From: a virus
Strand: one strand, 5' to 3'
Length of the DNA stretch: 24,242 nucleotides
Virus record (IMG/VR): IMGVR_UViG_3300022856_000037
Location: 1 to 24,242 of that record
Shown here: in pieces, positions 6,860 through 23,204 of the stretch
Position numbering within the stretch: position 1 is the stretch's first letter
Layout of the letters: each line of letters starts with the position of its first letter
Notes under the pieces: generated by a model
Told to the model about the DNA's origin: nothing
Database searches by the model: none
Seen by the model: the letters and a program-made list of their open reading frames with translations, nothing else
Translations under genes and position numbers: made by a program

Positions 6860-6873
6860 AATTTTGACTAAAC

Positions 6874-6895
6874 TTGACTTTACTAAATTGTATTT
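6874..6895. repeat. 22-bp inverted repeat, right arm
   Basis: Exact reverse complement of 6500-6521. It overlaps the last bases of the frameshifted gene (stop at 6894-6896) and contains TTGACTTTAC, which also resembles a -35 box. A related TTGACTAAAC lies beside it at 6864-6873. Confidence 0.9.
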
Positions 6896-7023
6896 AATCT
6901 TCGTTATTATAAACTTGAAAACCTATTGCACTCGCTCCGTTTTCTGTCTTATCTTCTTTATCTTCGTGCCAAACATCTGTTTTATCTGCTTTAGGTTCTT
7001 TTTTTAAAATAGTATATTTTCAT
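6894..7023 (-). pseudogene. Small acidic protein gene (42 aa) with +1 frameshift at an A7 run
   Basis: From ATG 7021-7023 the frame reads MKIYYFKK and meets TAA two codons later (RT-stop). Removing one A from the run of seven (6999-7005 on the plus strand) joins it to a fluent second frame, KEPKADKTDVWHEDKED then TENGASAIGFQVYNNED and TAA, a 42-residue acidic soluble protein. The downstream half looks like genuine coding sequence. Options are a sequencing error in the homopolymer, a real inactivating insertion, or programmed slippage on A AAA AAA. I cannot separate these from one sequence. Confidence 0.6.
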
Positions 7024-7289
7024 ATAACAAAAAAGACAACAGCAAAAATTAGCCTGTTATCTCTTTAAGATTTAAGTCTATTGTATTCATAGTTCAAAGG
7101 TTACGTAAGCCTTTCAACAGTATTCAGTTGTTCTCTTTGAATGAGCTATTGTTTGCTAAGCCCTCGCCAATAGCTTTTTCTGGTCATACATAGCTATTAA
7201 TCCCACCCATTGGATACAATATTCATTATACCCAAGCCAGGGGGAGACGAAGACTTAATAAACAATATTTAGTTGTGTGATTAAAGAAC

Positions 7290-7434
7290 ATTGTTTGCTA
7301 AGAAGAAAGATGCTTAAAGTTTTGGAATAGTCTGCTTAGCTCGCATCTTTTATTTATATGTTTAGAGCTTCTAGTATGATTATCTAAAGTGCGTTACCTT
7401 AAATATTCCTAAAAACTTCTTCTTAATAAACAAT
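7290..7434 (-). ncRNA. Pseudoknotted RNA element
   Basis: Outer stem of 16 positions (7290-7305 with 7419-7434; 14 canonical pairs). Inside is P2, AAAGATGC (7306-7313) with GCATCTTT (7343-7350). The P2 loop carries GTTTTGGAATA (7319-7329), which is complementary to TATTCC-t-AAAA(A)C (7404-7416) between P2 and the outer stem, giving a pseudoknot of about 10 bp with one bulge. A third hairpin, TTTAGA/TCTAAA, lies near 7360-7388. Strand inferred from the promoter at 7650. Confidence 0.55.
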
Positions 7435-7459
7435 TATTCTATTGTATTCCTTTAATGAG

Positions 7460-7570
7460 CTTTAATTCACAAACAACTACCACCGATAAGTACCTAGTAA
7501 TCCCAATCAAGTTATCAACTCTTTCACTATTACATATAGTCTAAATCAGAAGTATGTGTTTGTATTAAAG
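7460..7570 (-). ncRNA. Second structured element in the same leader
   Basis: Outer stem CTTTAAT-tc-ACAAACA (7460-7475) with TGTTTGTATTAAAG (7557-7570). Inside, GATAA (7485-7489) pairs with TTATC (7512-7516), and the loop segment GTAAT (7497-7501) can pair with ATTAC (7529-7533) outside that hairpin, again a pseudoknot topology. The outer stem shares AAAG with the hairpin at 7567-7595, so the two are mutually exclusive. Confidence 0.4.
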
Positions 7571-7638
7571 TTCTCTTGTAATTACAAGGGACTTTTAATC
7601 CCTTTCACTTAAAGATATTATTTATTTAATATCTTAAG

Positions 7639-7659
7639 GTGCTATCTATATTATAGCAC
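7639..7659. promoter_or_regulatory. Dyad overlapping the -10 box (possible operator)
   Basis: Perfect 7-bp inverted repeat GTGCTAT / ATAGCAC with a 7-base spacer, centred on the -10 hexamer of the promoter at 7650-7677. This is where a dimeric repressor would block polymerase. The small HTH protein at 15572-15754 is one candidate ligand, by inference only. Confidence 0.45.
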
Positions 7660-7677
7660 GACTGTATCTTATGTCAA
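7650..7677 (-). promoter_or_regulatory. Consensus sigma-70 promoter for the packaging/capsid operon
   Basis: On the minus strand TTGACA (7672-7677), a 16-base spacer, then TATAAT (7650-7655): both hexamers match the consensus exactly. The start point would be near 7643, at the head of the structured region and upstream of the terminase, portal and capsid genes. The -35 box lies within the 3' end of the 26-residue membrane peptide gene. Confidence 0.8.
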
Positions 7678-7754
7678 TACCAAAGTATGAAACCAATGAA
7701 ACAACCGAACATATACAAGGCTATTGCTGTTAGTAGTAATATTAGTTTATTCAT
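7674..7754 (-). CDS. 26-residue membrane peptide
   Basis: MNKLILLLTAIALYMFGCFI followed by GFILWY and TGA: one uninterrupted hydrophobic segment. It follows a likely terminator (7774-7807) and its 3' end overlaps the -35 box of the next promoter. It may be a small membrane toxin or holin-like peptide, or a lipoprotein-like signal (FGC at residues 16-18). Too short for firm support. Confidence 0.4.
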   Translation of the reverse strand: MNKLILLLTAIALYMFGCFIGFILWY

Positions 7755-7773
7755 ATATTTTAATTATTAATCT

Positions 7774-7807
7774 TTAAAAATAGAGAGCAAGTTTTTTATT
7801 ACTCTCT
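7774..7807 (-). terminator. Rho-independent terminator after the 71-aa gene
   Basis: On the minus strand AGAGAGTAA pairs with TTGCTCTCT (9 bp, one U-G pair) around an 8-base A-rich loop, followed by ATTTTT. It lies about 5 bp after the stop of the gene at 7813-8028 and upstream of the next promoter, marking a transcription-unit border. Confidence 0.65.
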
Positions 7808-7812
7808 GTGTG

Positions 7813-9213: not shown

Positions 9214-9265
9214 TTTTATAATTATTTATGACCGTCTATTCTTTGGTCTGTTGGGGGTTATTTAA
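9214..9265. repeat. 52-bp intergenic repeat, copy A
   Basis: Identical over 52 bp to 11060-11111. In the direction of transcription it begins with the stop codon of the 9258-9704 gene (TTAAATAACCCCCAACAG), continues AAGAATAGACGGTC, and ends in an AT-rich leader next to the next ATG. Partial copies lie at 9974-10003 and 10129-10162. Confidence 0.9.
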
Positions 9266-9704
9266 GTTTCTTTAATTCTTTTTCATACTCCCAATATTTA
9301 TATGTTTTTCCTTTATACTTTTTTATGAGTTTATTAAATTTGTCTATATTAGCTTCATATCCGCAAAAAACATAACATTTTTTTAAATCTTTTTTAGTTC
9401 TAATAGTAACCCTGTCTATATTACAACCCACTAAATCTTCTACGTTTTTAAATCCTCCGTTCCACCATTGCCCATTACATTTTACAATTTCACCGTTATC
9501 TAGTTTTATTTCAAACTTCCTGCCAGCAAACGCTTTAAACCTTCCCTCTGGTTCTTCATACTGATAACAATCATAAAATAATCCATCTGTACCATAAATA
9601 ATATTATCAACTTTTTTAAATATAAGTTTTGGTTTTCTATCTATTACATAAGCAAACCTATTGTTAAATATCACTTTAGCAATTATCTTTATTTCTTTTT
9701 CCAT
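9258..9704 (-). CDS. Hypothetical protein (148 aa)
   Basis: 148 residues, MEKEIKIIAKVIFNNRFAYV, beta-rich and basic, with conserved-looking aromatic runs (CYQYEEPEGRFKAFAGRKFE, NGQWWNGGF) and a Lys-rich C-terminus (YWEYEKELKKLK). The stop codon lies inside repeat copy A. No motif recognised. Structured RNA lies directly upstream (9726-9873). Confidence 0.65.
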   Translation of the reverse strand: MEKEIKIIAKVIFNNRFAYVIDRKPKLIFKKVDNIIYGTDGLFYDCYQYEEPEGRFKAFAGRKFEIKLDNGEIVKCNGQWWNGGFKNVEDLVGCNIDRVTIRTKKDLKKCYVFCGYEANIDKFNKLIKKYKGKTYKYWEYEKELKKLK

Positions 9705-9973: not shown

Positions 9974-10003
9974 TTTTATAATTATTTATAACCGTCTATT
10001 CTT
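9974..10003. repeat. 52-bp repeat, partial copy B1
   Basis: 30 bp matching the start of copy A with one change (TTATAACCG for TTATGACCG). It abuts the stem of the tRNA-like element; the rest of the repeat resumes on the other side (10129-10162), so ACCGTCTATTCTT is duplicated on both flanks. Confidence 0.85.
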
Positions 10004-10135
10004 AGTCGGCATAGTTATAAGAAGATAAATTTGGAGGTCGGATTTGAACCAACATCGCATATACAACAGATTTCTCTGGTATGTGTTTTACCAATTAAAC
10101 CACTTCGCATTTATCTCCTTGTAACTAAACCGTCT
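10004..10135 (-). ncRNA. tRNA-like RNA on a long stem, no normal anticodon loop
   Basis: On the minus strand a 27-position stem (10109-10135 with 10004-10030; 24 pairs including two G-U that pair only on this strand, mismatches A-A, U-U and C-A) carries a tRNA-like head. D-arm: GTTT-AATTGGTA-AAAC. T-arm: GTTGG-TTCAAAT-CCGAC, a canonical T-loop. The anticodon position instead holds CATAC, CAGA-GAAA-TCTG and GTATATG: a stem closed by a GNRA tetraloop rather than a 7-base loop. The acceptor segment GCGAAG/CTCCAA is only half paired. It is flanked by repeat halves B1 and B2. It could be a decayed tRNA or a dedicated tRNA mimic. Confidence 0.6.
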
Positions 10136-10162
10136 ATTCTTTGGTCTGTTGGGGGTTATTTA
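10129..10162. repeat. 52-bp repeat, partial copy B2
   Basis: 34 bp identical to the distal part of copies A and C (ACCGTCTATTCTTTGG through GTTATTTA). As in copy A it starts with the stop codon of a small gene (10156-10293). Confidence 0.9.
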
Positions 10163-10293
10163 CATATAGGACAATACCAAGCACCATTTTCATCCATTTC
10201 AAAAGTGTCTGTTAAATGAGTGCATTCTTTTTCAATTTTTTTGATTTTAGCATCAATCCCTTGCTTTGGTCTTAATTTCTCGCTGTAATTCAT
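10156..10293 (-). CDS. Small protein with CPIC end (45 aa)
   Basis: 45 residues, MNYSEKLRPKQGIDAKIKKI, then ECTHLTDTFEMDENGAWYCP and ICK. One Cys-Thr-His and one CPIC pair suggest a single zinc site. The stop TAA is the first codon of repeat B2. It is preceded at 35 bp by an orphan AGGAGG (10323-10330), too far to act on this ATG. Confidence 0.55.
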   Translation of the reverse strand: MNYSEKLRPKQGIDAKIKKIEKECTHLTDTFEMDENGAWYCPICK

Positions 10294-11059: not shown

Positions 11060-11111
11060 TTTTATAATTATTTATGACCGTCTATTCTTTGGTCTGTTGG
11101 GGGTTATTTAA
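11060..11111. repeat. 52-bp intergenic repeat, copy C
   Basis: Identical to 9214-9265. Here the upstream gene reads through in a different frame: its last residues NNPQQTKE and the stop TAG (11082-11084) are encoded by the repeat itself. Confidence 0.9.
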
Positions 11112-11408
11112 TTTGAATATATATTTTTCTACTTGTTTGTATTTTCCCTTTATCATCTTTAAATTAGATAGACCATTAATATTTAAAGATTTACCATTTT
11201 TAGATAATGTAAACTGGCTACCTTCAATAATTTTTATAAAACCATTCTCTTCATCAATAAATAAGTCAATTTTTTTAATATCTTTATAGTCTTTAGATGC
11301 CTCCATGTTTATATATATAGCCCTGTTATTAAAACTTATGTATGGCTTTATATTAAGTCTTGCAAACTTTTTTCCTATAGTTTTAAATTGTATAAACTTA
11401 TATTCCAT
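11082..11408 (-). CDS. Hypothetical protein with a repeat-encoded tail (108 aa)
   Basis: 108 residues from ATG 11406-11408 (MEYKFIQFKTIGKKFARLNI). A longer frame begins at 11504, but it overlaps the zinc-ribbon gene and lacks the usual ATATATG context, so I chose the inner start. Beta-rich, with SFNNRAIYINMEAS and FTLSKNGKSLNINGL. The C-terminal eight residues come from repeat copy C. Family not recognised. Confidence 0.6.
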   Translation of the reverse strand: MEYKFIQFKTIGKKFARLNIKPYISFNNRAIYINMEASKDYKDIKKIDLFIDEENGFIKIIEGSQFTLSKNGKSLNINGLSNLKMIKGKYKQVEKYIFKLNNPQQTKE

Positions 11409-11761: not shown

Positions 11762-12118
11762 TTATTCTAATTGACTTTTTTCATTATCTATTATCTTTTC
11801 CATTTCTTCTTCTCGCCAAGTATTAAAGTTTCCCTTACCGTCTGTTTGTTTATTCCATTTAACAAATAATACTGCGTATAATCTTTTAGATGGTGTCTTT
11901 ACATTCTGGTCTATCTTGGCTGTTTCAGTTGGTATGTCTTTTGTTTGGAAAGTGTTCTCCGAGAATAAAAACCAGCCTTCCTTCTGCTCCAAATCGAACA
12001 ACTTAGCTTTTTCTTCTCCTGCTAGTTCTTTGGCTATATAAACAGTTAGCTTTAAAGTTTTATCACGGAGCGTACTTATTCCCTGTATAAAAGCAGGAGC
12101 TTGGAATTTATTTGTCAT
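11762..12118 (-). CDS. Conserved phage protein, KFQAPAFIQ type (118 aa)
   Basis: 118 residues from ATG 12116-12118 (MTNKFQAPAFIQGISTLRD). A longer frame adds ten Ile/Lys residues from AT-rich spacer and is unlikely. Further features are KELAGEEKAKLFDLEQ, a GWFLFSEN strand, and KTPSKRLYAVLFVKW. Proteins of this layout are common beside phage ssDNA-binding proteins and probably take part in replication or recombination, but function is unknown. Its 5' end overlaps the homing endonuclease gene by 11 bp, and the first ten residues are repeated in that enzyme. Confidence 0.7.
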   Translation of the reverse strand: MTNKFQAPAFIQGISTLRDKTLKLTVYIAKELAGEEKAKLFDLEQKEGWFLFSENTFQTKDIPTETAKIDQNVKTPSKRLYAVLFVKWNKQTDGKGNFNTWREEEMEKIIDNEKSQLE

Positions 12119-12569
12119 AGTTTTTATAATTATTATTTTTAATATCAAATTGTCTATGGCAACGCCTACAACGTGGTGTATAATCTTCTTCTTTTCTTTT
12201 ATATTTATGGTCTATATTAGACCAATCCATAGCTTGCTTTCCACATTCGCATTTATGCAACTTAGCTTTCCCATTAATTTTTACTATCCATTGATGTTTC
12301 GGTTTTATACCAGCATTTTCTCCTTTCCAATTTTTGCTTTTCTCGCCTATTAATCCTTGTTTAGATTTAGTATTACTTATTTTTAATTTAGTTTCTTCTG
12401 TATGTTCTTTCCCATAAAAAGGATGCTTGTTGCCAATCCTGCTATCACTCATTTTCTTTTTAGTTTCTTCTGGCAGTTTTCTACCCTTTAAAGCTAAAGA
12501 TATTTTTTCCCTATGCTCTTTTGTAAAAGTTCTTTTCTGTATGAATGATGGTGCTTGAAATTTACTCAT
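12108..12569 (-). CDS. NUMOD3/HNH homing endonuclease
   Basis: 153 residues. Residues about 17-70 carry two NUMOD3 DNA-binding repeats (TKEHREKISLALKGRK and TEETKLKISNTKSKQG, with GNKHPFYGKEH between). Residues 105-145 form a small HNH nuclease with zinc ligands CECG (107-110) and CRRCH (134-138) and the catalytic-type WSNIDHKYKR. Such enzymes cut one DNA site and spread their own gene. The N-terminus MSKFQAPSFIQ copies that of the following gene (MTNKFQAPAFIQ). The start overlaps the preceding stop as ATGA, so it uses the neighbours' translation signals. Confidence 0.85.
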   Translation of the reverse strand: MSKFQAPSFIQKRTFTKEHREKISLALKGRKLPEETKKKMSDSRIGNKHPFYGKEHTEETKLKISNTKSKQGLIGEKSKNWKGENAGIKPKHQWIVKINGKAKLHKCECGKQAMDWSNIDHKYKRKEEDYTPRCRRCHRQFDIKNNNYKNYDK

Positions 12570-12985
12570 ATTTTTGGTTTATAAGGTTTTAATAATAAAA
12601 GTTTATTATACATTTCTCTGTAATAAACATATCCTGCTGTCATTCCTATTCCTTGTTTCTTTAGTGCAAGTATTTCCTCTACCCATGCTGCGCCTTTGAT
12701 TATATCTATTCTAGCGTGTACTGTGCTGTCTTTGTGCTGATGGTGGTTTGTGTGGCATCTTCCGCATATAGGGATTAAATTCTTCCAGTTATATCTAAGG
12801 AATGTACTGTGGCTTTTAAGCACGTAGTGATGGCAACAAGAATAGTCATTACCGCATACTAAACATCCATCATCTCCGTACATTTCCCTAGCTATATCCT
12901 GCATTAAAGCGTCTGCCTTTCGTTGCCAATATCCTAAAGTTTGGTTTCTTTTCTTCTTAGGTTTTGCTATTGGTTTTATTTTCAT
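12566..12985 (-). CDS. HNH nuclease, NinG/Rap-like
   Basis: 139 residues with a basic N-terminus (MKIKPIAKPKKKRNQTLGYW), then GCLVCGNDYSCCHHYVLKSH at 40-59 and LIPICGRCHTNHHQH at 70-84. The two CxxC pairs bracket an HH...N...H arrangement typical of HNH folds such as lambda NinG (Rap), a recombination endonuclease acting on branched DNA. Its position between the ssDNA-binding protein and small replication genes fits. A free-standing HNH enzyme of other function is the alternative. Confidence 0.7.
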   Translation of the reverse strand: MKIKPIAKPKKKRNQTLGYWQRKADALMQDIAREMYGDDGCLVCGNDYSCCHHYVLKSHSTFLRYNWKNLIPICGRCHTNHHQHKDSTVHARIDIIKGAAWVEEILALKKQGIGMTAGYVYYREMYNKLLLLKPYKPKI

Positions 12986-14777: not shown

Positions 14778-14789
14778 ATTATTGGATTA
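14778..14789. repeat. 12-bp direct repeat, left
   Basis: ATTATTGGATTA, repeated exactly at 14898-14909. The pair flanks the structured element like a target-site duplication. Confidence 0.7.
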
Positions 14790-14894
14790 TTTATTATCGC
14801 CTATACACTGCTCGTCAGCCAATTACACGGGTATTTATACCGAAATGCATTCAACCTCTTGTAATCAAGTGGTTTAATGTATAGGTGGTAATAA
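14789..14894. ncRNA. Cloverleaf-like structured element flanked by direct repeats
   Basis: A terminal stem of about 17-21 bp joins TTATTATCGCCTATACA to TGTATAGGTGGTAATAA. It is continuous only on the plus strand, where two positions are G-U pairs. Inside are CTG-CTCGT-CAG, CGGGTAT/ATACCG, and AACC-t-CTTG-TAAT-CAAG-t-GGTT. ATTAC near 14822 can pair with GTAAT in the last hairpin. It lies between the transglycosylase gene and a 66-residue gene. Possibly a mobile palindromic element; strand and function unproven. Confidence 0.55.
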
Positions 14895-14897
14895 ATA

Positions 14898-14909
14898 ATT
14901 ATTGGATTA
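14898..14909. repeat. 12-bp direct repeat, right
   Basis: ATTATTGGATTA, identical to 14778-14789, 120 bp away. Confidence 0.7.
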
Positions 14910-14910
14910 G

Positions 14911-14953
14911 TGGAGAGTTCAAGATAATTCCTAGTGTTATCCTAAACTCCCAC
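14911..14953 (-). other. Bulged hairpin downstream of the transglycosylase gene
   Basis: GTGG-a-GAGTT pairs with AACTC-CCAC, and inside GATAA pairs with TTATC around CTAG-containing loop sequence. It lies between the terminator-like hairpin at 14961-14980 and the right direct repeat. Confidence 0.45.
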
Positions 14954-14960
14954 CTTTCCA

Positions 14961-14980
14961 TTTAAAAGCTATTGCTAGCT
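14961..14980 (-). terminator. Terminator-like hairpin after the transglycosylase
   Basis: On the minus strand AGCTA-GCAA-TAGCT (a GNRA tetraloop) followed by TTTTAAA, starting 3 bp after the stop codon at 14984. The stem is short and AT-containing, so termination may be weak. Confidence 0.5.
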
Positions 14981-14983
14981 GAT

Positions 14984-15451
14984 TTATTTACAATTATTAG
15001 TATACCCATACCATGCCTCCCAATTCCTATCTCTTATTCTTTTCTCTATTGCTTTTTTAGTGGCACATTTATAATCCCATCTACATTCTACTGATACTGT
15101 TGCTTTATTCACGCTATTCCACTGCCAGAGACCAAAATCCGTAGAGCCATTAGTATTTATTCCATACTTCCAGTTATCCCAACCACTTTCATTTTGTATA
15201 AGACAATTTACTTCTTCCCAGCTTAATCCTGCTTTTTCTATTTCTAGTTTTACATATTCTTTCATACTCGGCTCTGCATGTACGCTAGGCACTAATACTT
15301 CTGCTATCATTTCTTGCTTTATAGGGTCTGTTACAAAGCTATATACTTCTATTAAGCCTGTAAGTGTAATCATTAAGATTAAATAAGATGTTAAAATGTA
15401 AGATGCTAGTTTTAGTTGGTTTTTGATTTTTAGTAATTTTTTAAGTTTCAT
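14984..15451 (-). CDS. Membrane-anchored or secreted transglycosylase/lysozyme-like enzyme
   Basis: 155 residues. A basic N-terminus and one hydrophobic segment (about 15-39) end near VPSVHA-EP, a possible signal-peptidase site at 59-60. The catalytic domain has NCLIQNESGWDNW with the likely catalytic Glu88, STDFGLWQWNS (103-113) in the place of the lysozyme DxGLxQIN motif, and a NWEAWYGYTNNCK end. Cys83, 123, 129 and 154 may form disulphides, fitting an extracytoplasmic enzyme. It would cut peptidoglycan during entry or lysis, or act as a virion protein. The short SLT-like domain is familiar from candidate-phylum and low-GC genomes. Confidence 0.75.
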   Translation of the reverse strand: MKLKKLLKIKNQLKLASYILTSYLILMITLTGLIEVYSFVTDPIKQEMIAEVLVPSVHAEPSMKEYVKLEIEKAGLSWEEVNCLIQNESGWDNWKYGINTNGSTDFGLWQWNSVNKATVSVECRWDYKCATKKAIEKRIRDRNWEAWYGYTNNCK

Positions 15452-19297: not shown

Positions 19298-19326
19298 ATA
19301 CTAGCATAGGTAAATTGTAAAGTCAA
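19298..19326 (-). promoter_or_regulatory. Sigma-70 promoter, extended -10
   Basis: On the minus strand TTGACT (19321-19326), 17 bases, TAGTAT (19298-19303), preceded by TGC, an extended -10. It points into the pseudoknotted RNA and then the 18.9-16.2 kb gene run. Confidence 0.6.
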
Positions 19327-19394: not shown

Positions 19395-19610
19395 TTAGTC
19401 ATTTATTTTTGAGCATTCACCACTTGGATGAATCAAGTTATCTGCCCACTTATCACTTGGGTCTTTTAACTTATTTGTTTTACAAAACTCATTAACAAGG
19501 TCTGCAATTTTAGCAGAATCATTACTTGATGACATGATAGTCTTTTCTTTTCTTGTTGTGAGCCATGCACAGAATCCGCATACAGCTTCACTACCACTTA
19601 GTTTGTCCAT
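19395..19610 (-). CDS. Conserved phage hypothetical protein, CGFCAWLTTR type (71 aa)
   Basis: 71 residues: MDKLSGSEAVCGFCAWLTTR, then SSSNDSAKIADLVNEFCKTN and KWADNLIHPSGECSK. The CGFCAWLT start, central ..LVNEFCK and WADNL..P ending are, as I recall, typical of a conserved uncharacterised phage protein. Four cysteines suggest metal binding. Its start region and leader lie in the 77-bp repeat. Transcription continues towards 19.3 kb, where a new promoter starts. Confidence 0.7.
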   Translation of the reverse strand: MDKLSGSEAVCGFCAWLTTRKEKTIMSSSNDSAKIADLVNEFCKTNKLKDPSDKWADNLIHPSGECSKIND

Positions 19611-19678
19611 ACTCTTATATTTTAATTAATTAGTTTAACTGTTAGGTTGGGGTGCTTTTATATAATTAATTCTTATTT
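19602..19678. repeat. 77-bp direct repeat, copy 1
   Basis: Identical to 21082-21158. It covers the first codons (ATGGACAAA) and about 68 bp of leader of the 19395-19610 gene, including GCACCCCAACC. Confidence 0.95.
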
Positions 19679-19691
19679 GCTTTTAGGTTGG

Positions 19692-19797
19692 TTGTTTACT
19701 AAGGGAGGAGCTAGAAATAATTGGGAGCACCACGTTCTCTTATTTTCCAATTATTGTTTCTAGACTTGTGGTATTATCCCCCTCCCTCAATAAACAA
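19692..19797 (-). ncRNA. Pseudoknotted element inside a broken methyltransferase
   Basis: TTGTTTA/TAAACAA (19692-19698, 19791-19797), then AGGGAGG/CCTCCCT (19702-19708, 19781-19787), then a 14-bp stem with a 3-base bulge (19711-19724 with 19747-19763). The hairpin loop contains ACCAC (19729-19733), complementary to GTGGT (19768-19772) outside, a short pseudoknot. AGCACC in the same loop could instead pair with GGTGCT in the 77-bp leader. It lies between the methyltransferase remnant and the repeat leader. Confidence 0.55.
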
Positions 19798-19893
19798 ATT
19801 ATTTACTATCGCCAACTCATAATAGTTATCTTCTATATCTTTCATTAAATCCATACAATCGCCTAAATGAAATGTACCTTTGTTTATTTTCAT
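19774..19893 (-). pseudogene. N-terminal remnant of a DNA methyltransferase
   Basis: MKINKGTFHLGDCMDLMKDI followed by EDNYYELAIV matches the start of N6-adenine methyltransferases (LGDCMDLMKxIPDxYYELAIVDPPY). Where DPPY should follow, the frame reads NNLFIEGGG and stops at 19774-19776. The junction coincides with the outer stem of the structured element (19692-19797). The catalytic motif and all SAM-binding parts are lost. A functional short peptide cannot be excluded. Confidence 0.7.
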
Positions 19894-19905
19894 ATATTTA
19901 TTTAC

Positions 19906-19965
19906 TATAAGCTAGCAATTAATACCCCATGTTTGTCGCTTAAGAATACTAACTACTAGCTTATA
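19906..19965 (-). promoter_or_regulatory. 22-bp intergenic hairpin with G-U pairs
   Basis: 19906-19927 pairs with 19944-19965 without interruption if read as minus-strand RNA; five of the pairs are G-U and would be A-C mismatches on the other strand. The loop is about 16 bases (TTAAGCGACAAACATG). It starts just after the stop of the 19967-20200 gene and lies upstream of the methyltransferase remnant. Confidence 0.6.
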
Positions 19966-19966
19966 A

Positions 19967-20200
19967 TTAATTAATAGGAGGAAATAATTTACTTATCTTT
20001 TGTGCTGTTTCGTAGTCGAATATTAAAAGCTCTTTATCCTTTAAAGATATTCTAGGTGGTTGCTTACCATGACCGCAACAACAAGCCATAGTTTTAAATC
20101 CGTTATCGTTTAATACTTTTACTGACTTAACAAGACACTTATCTATATTAACTGTTTTTCCGTTTATGTTTAGTTTTTCCCATTGTCCATATTTGCACAT
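19967..20200 (-). CDS. Conserved phage protein with CCGHG motif (77 aa)
   Basis: 77 residues: VNIDKCLVKSVKVLNDNGFK, TMACCCGHGKQPPRISL, then FDYETAQKISKLF. The NIDxCL..V..LN..GxxT.ACCCGHG core is typical of a widespread small phage protein; Cys and His could bind a metal. Function unknown. The start as given overlaps the metalloprotein gene by 53 bp, so a later start is possible, though no good ATG follows. Confidence 0.7.
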   Translation of the reverse strand: MCKYGQWEKLNINGKTVNIDKCLVKSVKVLNDNGFKTMACCCGHGKQPPRISLKDKELLIFDYETAQKISKLFPPIN

Positions 20201-20610: not shown

Positions 20611-21090
20611 TTAAACTTTATTTTTTTCTACAAACATATTACAGCCATCTTTTTCTCCTGTTTCGTCATAGTTCTTATTGTCATTCATTTCTGGGATATT
20701 ATCACAATATATCCAAGCTCCACCTTCTTCACATTCTTTTCCTATTCCTTTACAAGAACAACATGATTTTTCTCTGTCTCTTATTCTTTTTATCTTTCCT
20801 CTTCCCTTATTATTTTTTAATTTATTGTAAAGACCAACATCAATTCCTAAAGGTGGTTTTTTACAATAAACACAAATTGCTGTACTAATATCATGCGGCA
20901 CTGATAAATGACTAACAACACATGAACAAAAATTTTCTCTTGTTGTACCTTTTTTAATATCTTTCTCATAATGCCCTACTAGACTTTTAAGAGATTTTTC
21001 TAAAACCTCGAATTGGTCTGGGCTTCTTGAAGTTATTGCAAATTCAAGAATAGCGTCTACTAAGTGTTTTAATGTTTTTACTTTGTCCAT
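20611..21090 (-). CDS. Cysteine-rich protein (159 aa)
   Basis: 159 residues. The N-terminal half is helical (MDKVKTLKHLVDAILEFAIT). The C-terminal half holds many cysteines: FCSCVVSH, ICVYCKKPPLG, CCSCKGIGKECEEGG and a final CNM, enough for two zinc sites. ICVYCKKPPLGIDVGLYNKL looks like a zinc ribbon. First gene downstream of the 77-bp leader and two structured RNAs. Not assigned. Confidence 0.65.
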   Translation of the reverse strand: MDKVKTLKHLVDAILEFAITSRSPDQFEVLEKSLKSLVGHYEKDIKKGTTRENFCSCVVSHLSVPHDISTAICVYCKKPPLGIDVGLYNKLKNNKGRGKIKRIRDREKSCCSCKGIGKECEEGGAWIYCDNIPEMNDNKNYDETGEKDGCNMFVEKNKV

Positions 21091-21158
21091 ACTCTTATAT
21101 TTTAATTAATTAGTTTAACTGTTAGGTTGGGGTGCTTTTATATAATTAATTCTTATTT
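21082..21158. repeat. 77-bp direct repeat, copy 2
   Basis: Identical to 19602-19678; covers the first codons and leader of the 20611-21090 gene. In both copies a structured RNA lies immediately upstream in the transcription direction. Confidence 0.95.
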
Positions 21159-21272: not shown

Positions 21273-21279
21273 TCAACAA

Positions 21280-21385
21280 AAAAACTTATAGCAAAGAATT
21301 GGCTTTAAAAGACCTACGGCTAGGTGAGGTCAATTAAATCGGCAGTTGCCTACCAATTCTTCAATATAAGTTTTTACCTAGCCGT
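21280..21385 (-). ncRNA. Pseudoknotted leader RNA with 10-bp pseudoknot
   Basis: Outer stem 21280-21290 with 21365-21375 (11 bp, perfect). Inner stem AGAATTGG/CCAATTCT (21295-21302, 21353-21360). Within it, hairpin GACC/GGTC (21311-21314, 21328-21331) has loop ACGGCTAGGT (21316-21325), perfectly complementary to ACCTAGCCGT (21376-21385), which directly abuts the outer stem. A small GGC-AACT-GCC hairpin is also inside. The 10-bp pseudoknot is GC-rich in an AT-rich region, so chance is unlikely. It lies about 25 bp downstream of the promoter at 21414-21442. Confidence 0.75.
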
Positions 21386-21564
21386 CTTTATATAATTGTA
21401 AATGTCTATCTAAAGTATATATTATAATTTTCTATCTGTCAACCCTTTCGGGAAATACCGTCTTATGGAATGAAATCGTTGTATCACCAATAAGATATAT
21501 TAATTGAGTCATTAATATCGGTCGGTGTTTTGCTTGTCTATTTAATCTTAAATTAGTTTTTATG
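21386..21564 (-). other. Non-coding stretch upstream of the leader RNAs
   Basis: Apart from the promoter at 21414-21442, it holds only CCC-GAAA-GGG just upstream of the -35 box and AT-rich sequence following the peptidase stop (21565). No gene was seen. Confidence 0.5.
21414..21442 (-). promoter_or_regulatory. Strong sigma-70 promoter
   Basis: On the minus strand TTGACA (21437-21442), 17 bases, TATACT (21414-21419): consensus -35 and 5 of 6 at -10. It drives the two structured RNAs and then the 21.1 kb genes. Confidence 0.75.
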
Positions 21565-22695
21565 TTATGTCAAGAATTTGCTAAAGTCTTTCCCGTTGAT
21601 GCCGATTAATCTTCCTTCTTTTGATAATTGTTTAATCCAATCATTTACAGCAGTTGGAGTTTCTATTTTATTTAAGCTACTATTTTCTATTTTATACATT
21701 CCAGGAGTAAAGTTTTTGTAGTTTTCAACAAGCAAAACATAATCAACTTTTCTTTTATCTTTAAAATTAATTATTTCTTTTTCATTAAATACACTAAACT
21801 TTTTCTTTAATCCAAAACTTATTAACATTCCATTTCCTAAACTATAATTAAGAGCTAGTTTTTTAACAAAAGGTTGGTACGAATCGCCAATAGTTTTAAA
21901 TTCTTTTTCACTCTTTTTAAATTTATAAACAGCGTGATTTTTATTTAGATTTACTCTTTGATATATTCCGTCAGCGTTAGGATAATGCCAGGCGAAAACA
22001 GAAGTCCCTAAAACGCCTTTTTCCATTACAGAGTCCATATTATAAGGAGAAACCCATTCGTAAGTAAAGTCTATGTACTCACATAGCTTTTTACCTTGTT
22101 CTAAGAGCCGTGGTGGGACTTTATTGCCATTAATGTATATTCCACCATTTGGATAATAAAGTTCGTTCCAGGTGGCATATTTTGGATAATCTCCTTTAGG
22201 TATTAATCCGTAGTTTCTAATAAATCCTGCTACTGAATTAAAAGAATTTCCTCTTCTTGTAGTTCCAGAACCACTAGCGACATATTCTGTATCTAGTAAA
22301 CACTTATCGCCCTTGATCAACCCGAAGTATTTAAAAATTTTTACAAGTTCTTGTATTTCTTCATTTGCCTCTCCATTATTAACAAGATGAATAAAGTAAT
22401 TAAAATTAGCTTCTATTGAGTTACAGGCTCCATTTTCACTAACACAGAACATTTTTTCAAATGGCTTATTCTGTTGCTCTCCGACTGGTATAAACTTTTC
22501 AAAGTTTCCGTCTTTTTTAATTGTTTTACTATTAGTAGAGCCTAGCTTCCCGTAAACATAATCTTTATTCTTTTTTATTTGTTTATCTGATACCTCAATA
22601 AGTCCATTCTTAATATTAGGTCTGTCTAGCATCTTATCTAAATGTACTAGAATATAATTGTCTATTTTGTTTTTTAAAATTTGTAGTAATTTCAT
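21565..22695 (-). CDS. Putative papain-like cysteine peptidase (376 aa)
   Basis: 376 residues from ATG 22693-22695 (MKLLQILKNKIDNYILVHLD), preceded by GGGAG and overlapping the previous stop as ATGA; a longer frame from 22725 is less likely. MFCVSENGACNSIEANFNYF carries the probable catalytic Cys, followed by SGSGTTRRGNSFNSVAGFIR, YATWNELYYPNG, then NKNHAVYKF (His) and IGDSYQPFVKKLA (Asp). This Cys-His-Asp order and the ATWNELYY segment match a family of phage-encoded C1-like proteins found near structural and lysis genes. It may cut peptide cross-links or process virion proteins. Confidence 0.65.
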   Translation of the reverse strand: MKLLQILKNKIDNYILVHLDKMLDRPNIKNGLIEVSDKQIKKNKDYVYGKLGSTNSKTIKKDGNFEKFIPVGEQQNKPFEKMFCVSENGACNSIEANFNYFIHLVNNGEANEEIQELVKIFKYFGLIKGDKCLLDTEYVASGSGTTRRGNSFNSVAGFIRNYGLIPKGDYPKYATWNELYYPNGGIYINGNKVPPRLLEQGKKLCEYIDFTYEWVSPYNMDSVMEKGVLGTSVFAWHYPNADGIYQRVNLNKNHAVYKFKKSEKEFKTIGDSYQPFVKKLALNYSLGNGMLISFGLKKKFSVFNEKEIINFKDKRKVDYVLLVENYKNFTPGMYKIENSSLNKIETPTAVNDWIKQLSKEGRLIGINGKDFSKFLT

Positions 22696-22910: not shown

Positions 22911-23204
22911 TTACTGTTTAACCCCTTGATTTCTTTTAGAAAGAGCGTTATAAACGTGTTCAGTCTGTCCTCTCCAGAAATAGTCTATCAAATAGTTGAT
23001 AATCTCTTCTGGGGTCTTGTTGTCAAATAATTTATGATAGTCCCGATGAAGATACATATCAACATAAGCGATATTCTTGGGTGTGTCGTCATTAGAGCGA
23101 CTTTGAGGAACGATATGATGTTTGTTTATGTTCTCTCCTTTGCTCCGTTTCTTGTCAATTCTTCTTTTCTCCTTGCGAAGTTTACGCTTGTCTTTTGGAT
23201 TCAT
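22911..23204 (-). CDS. Small HNH-like protein (97 aa)
   Basis: 97 residues: a very basic N-terminus (MNPKDKRKLRKEKRRIDKKR), then HHIVPQSRSNDDTPKN and HRDYHKLFDNKTPEEIINYL. HHIVP..R..D.P.N......HR..H is the HNH pattern of small phage proteins. Some cut DNA at packaging, others are homing-type or of unknown use. It has a strong AAGGAGG 7 bp upstream of the ATG. It sits inside the lysis-like block. Confidence 0.72.
   Translation of the reverse strand: MNPKDKRKLRKEKRRIDKKRSKGENINKHHIVPQSRSNDDTPKNIAYVDMYLHRDYHKLFDNKTPEEIINYLIDYFWRGQTEHVYNALSKRNQGVKQ

Follow-up and report, generated by a model that had tools for sequence, protein, structure and literature searches.

A self-complementary leader RNA behind an early phage promoter suggests an RNA brake on early transcription

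What does an RNA that folds back on itself directly behind an early phage promoter do for the operon it leads? The window analysed here is a 24,242-base IMG/VR virus record whose minus strand holds nearly all of its likely genes, and the element in question sits between the late genes (a 386-aa protein with its end at 21565) and an early block that runs from 21090. A sequence-only reading of this DNA had described a promoter-proximal RNA containing a perfect 10-bp pseudoknot and had likened it to the put RNAs of phage HK022. We found the structure where that reading had placed it, with the minus strand as the RNA-bearing one. In transcript order the element consists of strand A, P1, an inner hairpin, the A' hairpin, P1' and U7, and strand A (ACGGCUAGGU) is the perfect complement of A', a loop within the long P1/P2 hairpin. 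The coordinates of these features, and of a second copy in the same window, are given in Table 1.

Table 1. Features of the two leader elements and their surroundings, in coordinates of the window.
Feature	Position	Strand	Remarks
Predicted sigma70-like promoter TTGACA-17-TATACT, early transcription unit	21414..21442	-	11/12 consensus, top score of the region scanned
Promoter hexamers	TTGACA 21442-21437; TATACT 21419-21414	-	
Strand A ACGGCTAGGT	21376..21385	-	about +23 of the inferred transcript; 28 nt beyond the -10 hexamer
P1, 11 bp, AAAAACTTATA with TATAAGTTTTT	21375-21365 with 21290-21280	-	
P2, about 10 bp, AAGAATTGGT/GCCAATTCTT	21361-21352 with 21303-21294	-	
P1/P2 5' arm AAAAACTTATA-TTG-AAGAATTGGT	21352..21375	-	directly 3' of A
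Inner hairpin GGCAACTGCC (GGC-AACT-GCC)	21341..21350	-	from the fold
A'-bearing hairpin GACCT[C-ACCTAGCCGT]AGGTC, loop as CACCTAGCCGT	21311..21331	-	A' = 21325-21316
P2/P1 3' arm GCCAATTCTTTGCTATAAGTTTTT, leading into U7 (21284-21278)	21278..21303	-	terminator-like
Second leader domain, long hairpin TTAACAGgGTGGG / CCCCCACTGTTAA	21160..21272	-	
74-nt leader segment	21085..21158	-	exact repeat at 19605-19678, just before gene starts
First gene 3' of the leader, 159 aa	20611..21090	-	no family found
Second-copy promoter TTGACT-17-TAGTAT	19298..19326	-	
Second copy: A TTCTTGGAAA, hairpin TGTGCGTAAGCACA, A' TTTCCAAGAA	19187..19278	-	A 19278-19269; A' about 19227-19218
Second-copy P1	19270-19245 with 19212-19187	-	26-nt arms, U6 end

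The sequence-only reading had judged GC-rich complementarity of this kind improbable by chance, and our measurements agree. The best 120-nt fold on the minus strand has z = -5.5, one of the three lowest values in 1,208 windows, and the complementarity of A with A' has a shuffle p of 0.0005. It is the sole inverted complement of 10 bp with at least 6 GC within 80 nt in the whole window, where 0.02 are expected from shuffles. The promoter that had been placed close upstream was likewise confirmed. A search against Rfam 15, at the gathering threshold and at E<=10, returned no family at the element. The final descriptor, which requires A followed by a U-tailed hairpin with a loop complementary to A, was run on both strands of the window and matched only the two promoter-proximal sites. 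The second of these folds with z = -6.9, and there is no evident sequence common to the two. Known sites score 49-78 with this descriptor; the lower of the two window copies, at 49, is inside the range of the best reversed-sequence matches (about 51), and the other sites lie well above it.

A search of viral_contigs gave no protein relatives of the flanking genes, which left the window copy with no close homologue to build a covariance model from, and a search of phage records gave no DNA similarity to the early region. Relatives were recognized by layout. The distant relative G010 (L031/L032), reached via its terminase at 71% identity, has its strongest early-region fold exactly at the boundary of late and early genes, where a promoter (TTGATT-17-TATAAT) is followed by A/A' (CAACAAGAA / TTCTTGTTG) and a 22-bp P1 leading into U7; a gene start lies about 18 nt further on. 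Relatives of the G010 replication-initiator-like gene match HTH_36 and DnaD-like families, and in three loci reached via this gene (L040, L044 and L047) the element stands directly before it, the inferred transcription start of L044 being the first base of A.

We then took a census of 142 loci carrying a relative of the replication-initiator gene, from viral contigs and bacterial genomes (Firmicutes, Bacteroidetes, Treponema and others), using a detector that anchors on a U-run, takes the best hairpin ending there and tests its loop for complementarity to the 60 nt upstream. A candidate hairpin was present in 54 loci and none at all in 88, and about 31 of the 142 showed upstream complementarity with shuffle p <= 0.015; these loci include identical and near-identical records, so independent elements are fewer, and 28 distinct ones were folded. 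Among U-tailed hairpins with P>=30 in the 142 loci, A>=18 was found upstream in 24/36, against 6/36 in a downstream-flank control, and hairpins with P>=40 numbered 21 in real sequence and 0 in reversed or shuffled sequence. When 127 loci were scanned over 5 kb each on both strands, 20 of the 31 strong matches fell 0-100 nt before the replication-initiator gene on its own strand, compared with 4 anywhere on the opposite strand. No element was found close upstream of the Bacteroides/Parabacteroides phage replication genes (L248-L250). A preponderance of G.U over A.C (53:3) was discarded as a sign of RNA-level action, since the detector favours G.U (46:6 in reversed controls).

The element sequences are unrelated across distant phages and the layout is common to them, in two forms. 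In type I (the window, G010, L040, L044, L047, L160 and L167) A is a single strand ahead of P1. In type II (L123, L142, L150, L187 and Flavobacterium phages) A is displayed by the loop of a 5' hairpin and A' by that of the terminator-like hairpin, an arrangement that may be read as in kissing loops. Cultivated carriers are the Flavobacterium phages FCV-1, FCOV-S1, snusmum9-1 and morran9-1.

Between the loci L049 and L051 the terminator arms are identical and the flanks nearly so, but A (GTGGAACTC versus GTAGAGAG) and A' (GAGTTCCAC versus CTCTCTAC) differ. L051 finds its match in the FCV-1 group of Flavobacterium columnare phages, with 67 records at >=99%, and related forms are present in FCOV-S1/S2, snusmum9-1 and morran9-1; in FCL-2, inspection by eye finds CATCCAC in the loop of the 5' hairpin and GTGGATG in that of the terminator. 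In an alignment of six Flavobacterium-type elements (A3), 6/8 A:A' pairs have changed on both sides with the neighbourhood constant, and of the 48 cells all but one (97.9%) are paired. Covariation over the whole structure scores 0.513, compared with 0.246 in shuffles and 0.03-0.12 with slid partners, for a structure defined from the same six sequences and with shuffles that ignore relatedness; the compensating changes are direct. A further alignment (A4: L187; L184/L188; L237) adds two more double changes. The conservation and compensatory change in related phages that the sequence-only reading had proposed as a check are there, but it is the layout that is conserved, not the sequence, and the covariation is that of architectural relatives, not of close homologues of the window copy. 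For the window itself, the predicted A:A' pairing draws its support from complementarity, from folding and from analogy.

Folding the RNA sequentially changes what the pseudoknot can be taken to mean. In the first window element the probability of A:A' is 0.98 when the RNA ends at A' and 0.01 when it is complete, and in the second copy it falls from 0.93 to 0.0 on completion. Among the 28 elements, A:A' exceeds 0.5 in 21 when the RNA ends just past A', and in one in the full RNA. The complementarity described as a perfect 10-bp pseudoknot is real, but with A:A' and P1 replacing one another as the RNA lengthens, it is better read as a pair of competing helices than as a static pseudoknot. Several type I elements have a linker of 1-9 nt beside the closed hairpin and a P1 of 22-27 bp, so on geometric grounds the two states would be mutually exclusive; the linker looks too short for full P1 and A:A' together in L032, L040, L044, L047 and the second copy (window site 3), and in the first window element it may be long enough for both to coexist. 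Nested folding gives no A:A' before the terminator in 7/28 elements (L123, L130, L142, L150, L187, L066 and L172), mostly since A is inside another hairpin; we would read most of these leaders as kissing loops, an interpretation that is unproven.

The locus has the traits of an attenuator in that a promoter is followed by a leader with a U-tailed hairpin ahead of the first gene, and in that an alternative helix is predicted by thermodynamics to form earlier. What holds from the sequence-only reading is that the early operon has a structured leader RNA close to its promoter, one that probably bears on termination. We lean, with modest confidence, towards a self-complementary leader attenuator in which A:A' is the antiterminator and P1-U7 the terminator, perhaps tuned in trans by released leader. 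Since A' is transcribed before the 3' arm of P1, A would pair with A', and this helix would hold the outer, U-tract-proximal P1 open so that polymerase reads into the early operon. Were A unavailable, P1 would close onto U7 as an intrinsic-type terminator and a leader RNA of about 110-130 nt would be released. Such a leader, with A' in its loop, could occupy A on new transcripts, and its dosage would then act as a brake on early and replication-gene transcription, limiting copy number or superinfection. The computation supports the anatomy, the promoter position, the recurrence before replication genes, the covariation between A and A' among relatives and the refolding predicted for the growing RNA; actual termination and readthrough, any action in trans, and the biological purpose are inferred. 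P1 in the window is AU-rich beside U7 and may be a poor terminator, and a simple terminator scan with a loop limit of 8 nt did not call the P1-U7 hairpin.

Several other explanations were weighed against leader attenuation. The element could be a self-contained small RNA, a folded body between a promoter and an intrinsic terminator; A and A' would then be seeds that find other targets or allow dimerisation, with separate expression of the downstream gene. The promoter and U-tailed hairpin would indeed make a complete gene of about 110-130 nt, with A' shown in a loop and A as a free 5' tail, but most members have their start codon 13-45 nt beyond the U-run, which leaves little room for another promoter, so that the downstream gene seems to need readthrough; moreover A and A' covary together, as expected if each is the other's partner. 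We regard a self-contained small RNA as unlikely. The final state, a near-perfect helix of 20-27 bp near the 5' end, would also suit an element of mRNA stability or processing, in which the long P1 helix serves either to shield the 5' end or as a site for RNase III, and further long hairpins do lie between genes of this phage. Such a role leaves both the recurrent U-run and the covarying, perfect complementarity of the loop to the upstream strand unexplained, and we consider it quite improbable.

The put RNAs are about 70 nt long, with two stem-loops and sequence common to putL and putR, and contact the zinc-binding domain of the RNA polymerase beta' subunit (PMC9378689). Like putL (PMC9378689), the present element is promoter-proximal in early operons, and its two copies in two operons recall putL and putR, which are also structured RNAs of phage early operons bearing on termination. 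A put-like RNA would bind RNA polymerase and make it resistant to termination downstream. The elements here instead have alternative helices and their own U-run, the main hairpin being U-tailed like an intrinsic terminator in place of the two stem-loops of a ~70-nt RNA, and no sequence is common to the window copies or to their relatives, unlike putL and putR with their shared sequence and conserved residues. The descriptor had no match in a scan of 11 kb of HK022. Because put RNAs have two stem-loops, sequence shared between copies and specific polymerase contacts, we do not place the element in the put family, the resemblance that the sequence-only reading had drawn is not supported, and a put-like action has very little probability. 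Least probable of all is an element acting as DNA, such as a replication origin or protein-binding inverted repeats; it would fit the adjoining replication-initiator genes, and it accords poorly with a feature found repeatedly behind promoters, with a U-run at the 3' arm of the transcript and the strand bias given above.

Leader attenuation by a self-complementary RNA would be a known kind of control in a new variant form. In phage P4, CI RNA derived from the leader pairs with its own leader and stops the replication operon by premature termination, and seqB is complementary to the upstream seqA of the same transcript (PMC4825925). Complementarity of seqB to sequences on both sides is visible in the P4 genome. 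Both systems have an early or replication-operon leader in which a loop segment is complementary to an upstream leader segment, and the P4 CI RNA is the closest in logic. P4 differs in its downstream seqC, its processed CI RNA and a seqA about 200 nt away, whereas here A is within 60 nt and A' is presented by the loop of a U-tailed hairpin, for which P4 has no counterpart; the descriptor did not pick out the seqA/seqB pair of P4. In the second leader domain of the window there is a further, partial match to A', the third (TTGTGGCTAG at 21189-21180), with p = 0.0085 when only the A' loop is considered and 0.127 for the whole loop; a seqC-like third copy of the A complement is at best marginal and unproven.

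The rep-leader attenuators of plasmids pT181 and pIP501 employ a separate convergent antisense RNA. They too work by attenuation in a replication-initiator leader with specificity set by loop complementarity, but here the complementarity is inside the sense leader and an antisense transcript is not needed. HDV-like ribozymes have the strand order P1, P2, P3, P1', P2', which the order A, P, hairpin, A', P' resembles; A here is 7-18 bp rather than 7, and A' is in a hairpin loop or apart from the inner hairpin. An HDV-like ribozyme topology was rejected, as none of the HDV models in Rfam matches at a threshold as lax as E 10. In the open-licence literature we found nothing relevant as a prior description of such an element.

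Loops that change in concert while stems stay fixed are typical of recognition loops in antisense copy-control systems. Given this concerted change and the P4 precedent for a leader-derived RNA, feedback in trans by released leader is plausible by analogy; a switch acting in cis only and drifting through compensatory change is possible. The same-layout RNAs before the replication genes of many distant phages suggest an undescribed RNA brake on phage early transcription. More tentatively, and with doubt outweighing belief, we suggest a widespread system in which A/A' is a barcode for each phage: the terminated leader would recognise identical leaders in trans and shut off early and replication transcription, whether in its own phage or in co-infecting phages that bear this barcode, amounting to RNA-coded copy control and superinfection exclusion with a specificity that diversifies by concerted loop changes. 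An RNA brake of the proposed kind would add a large class of regulatory RNA, unconserved in sequence and invisible to family models, at the replication-start switch of phages spread over several bacterial phyla. The A/A' pairs of cultivated Flavobacterium columnare phages differ between the FCV-1 type and FCL-2, so that the use of RNA barcodes for copy control or superinfection exclusion is directly testable.

Other features of the window were recorded along the way. The exact 74-nt repeat (19605-19678 and 21085-21158, minus strand) comprises the leader end and the start of two different early genes, and each copy is preceded by a different long hairpin, TTAACAG..CTGTTAA and TTGTTTATTGAGGGAGG..CCTCCCTTAGTAAACAA. 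The start of a DNA methyltransferase-like reading frame (MKINKGTFHLGDCMDLMKDIEDNYYELAIV, about 19780-19892, minus strand) stops at the point where a long hairpin and the 74-nt repeat set in, which gives the impression that the block of hairpin, leader and gene was inserted there. Between two early genes at 19880-20000 (minus strand) there is a hairpin with arms of about 25 nt (ATTATAAGCTAGTAGTTAGTATTCT / GGGGTATTAATTGCTAGCTTATAGT; z -5.5) and no U-run. A strongly folded intergenic region at 14786-15000 (minus strand; z -5.2) has a 15-bp hairpin and then a domain of about 110 nt closed by ATTATTTATTA..TAATAAATAAT.

A 55-nt repeat occurs four times (9214-9268, 9974-10028, 10112-10166 and 11060-11114), and two of its copies flank a tRNA-like sequence (Rfam RF00005, 10035-10104, minus strand, 30.5 bits) for which ARAGORN made no call. 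Almost 1 kb at 6860-7812 is without ORFs of 50 aa, and contigs L004 and L006, elsewhere about 99-100% identical, differ there by insertions, deletions and replaced stretches. NUMOD3 and HNH-type proteins are encoded at 12108-12985 and 22911-23204 and are suggestive of homing endonucleases.
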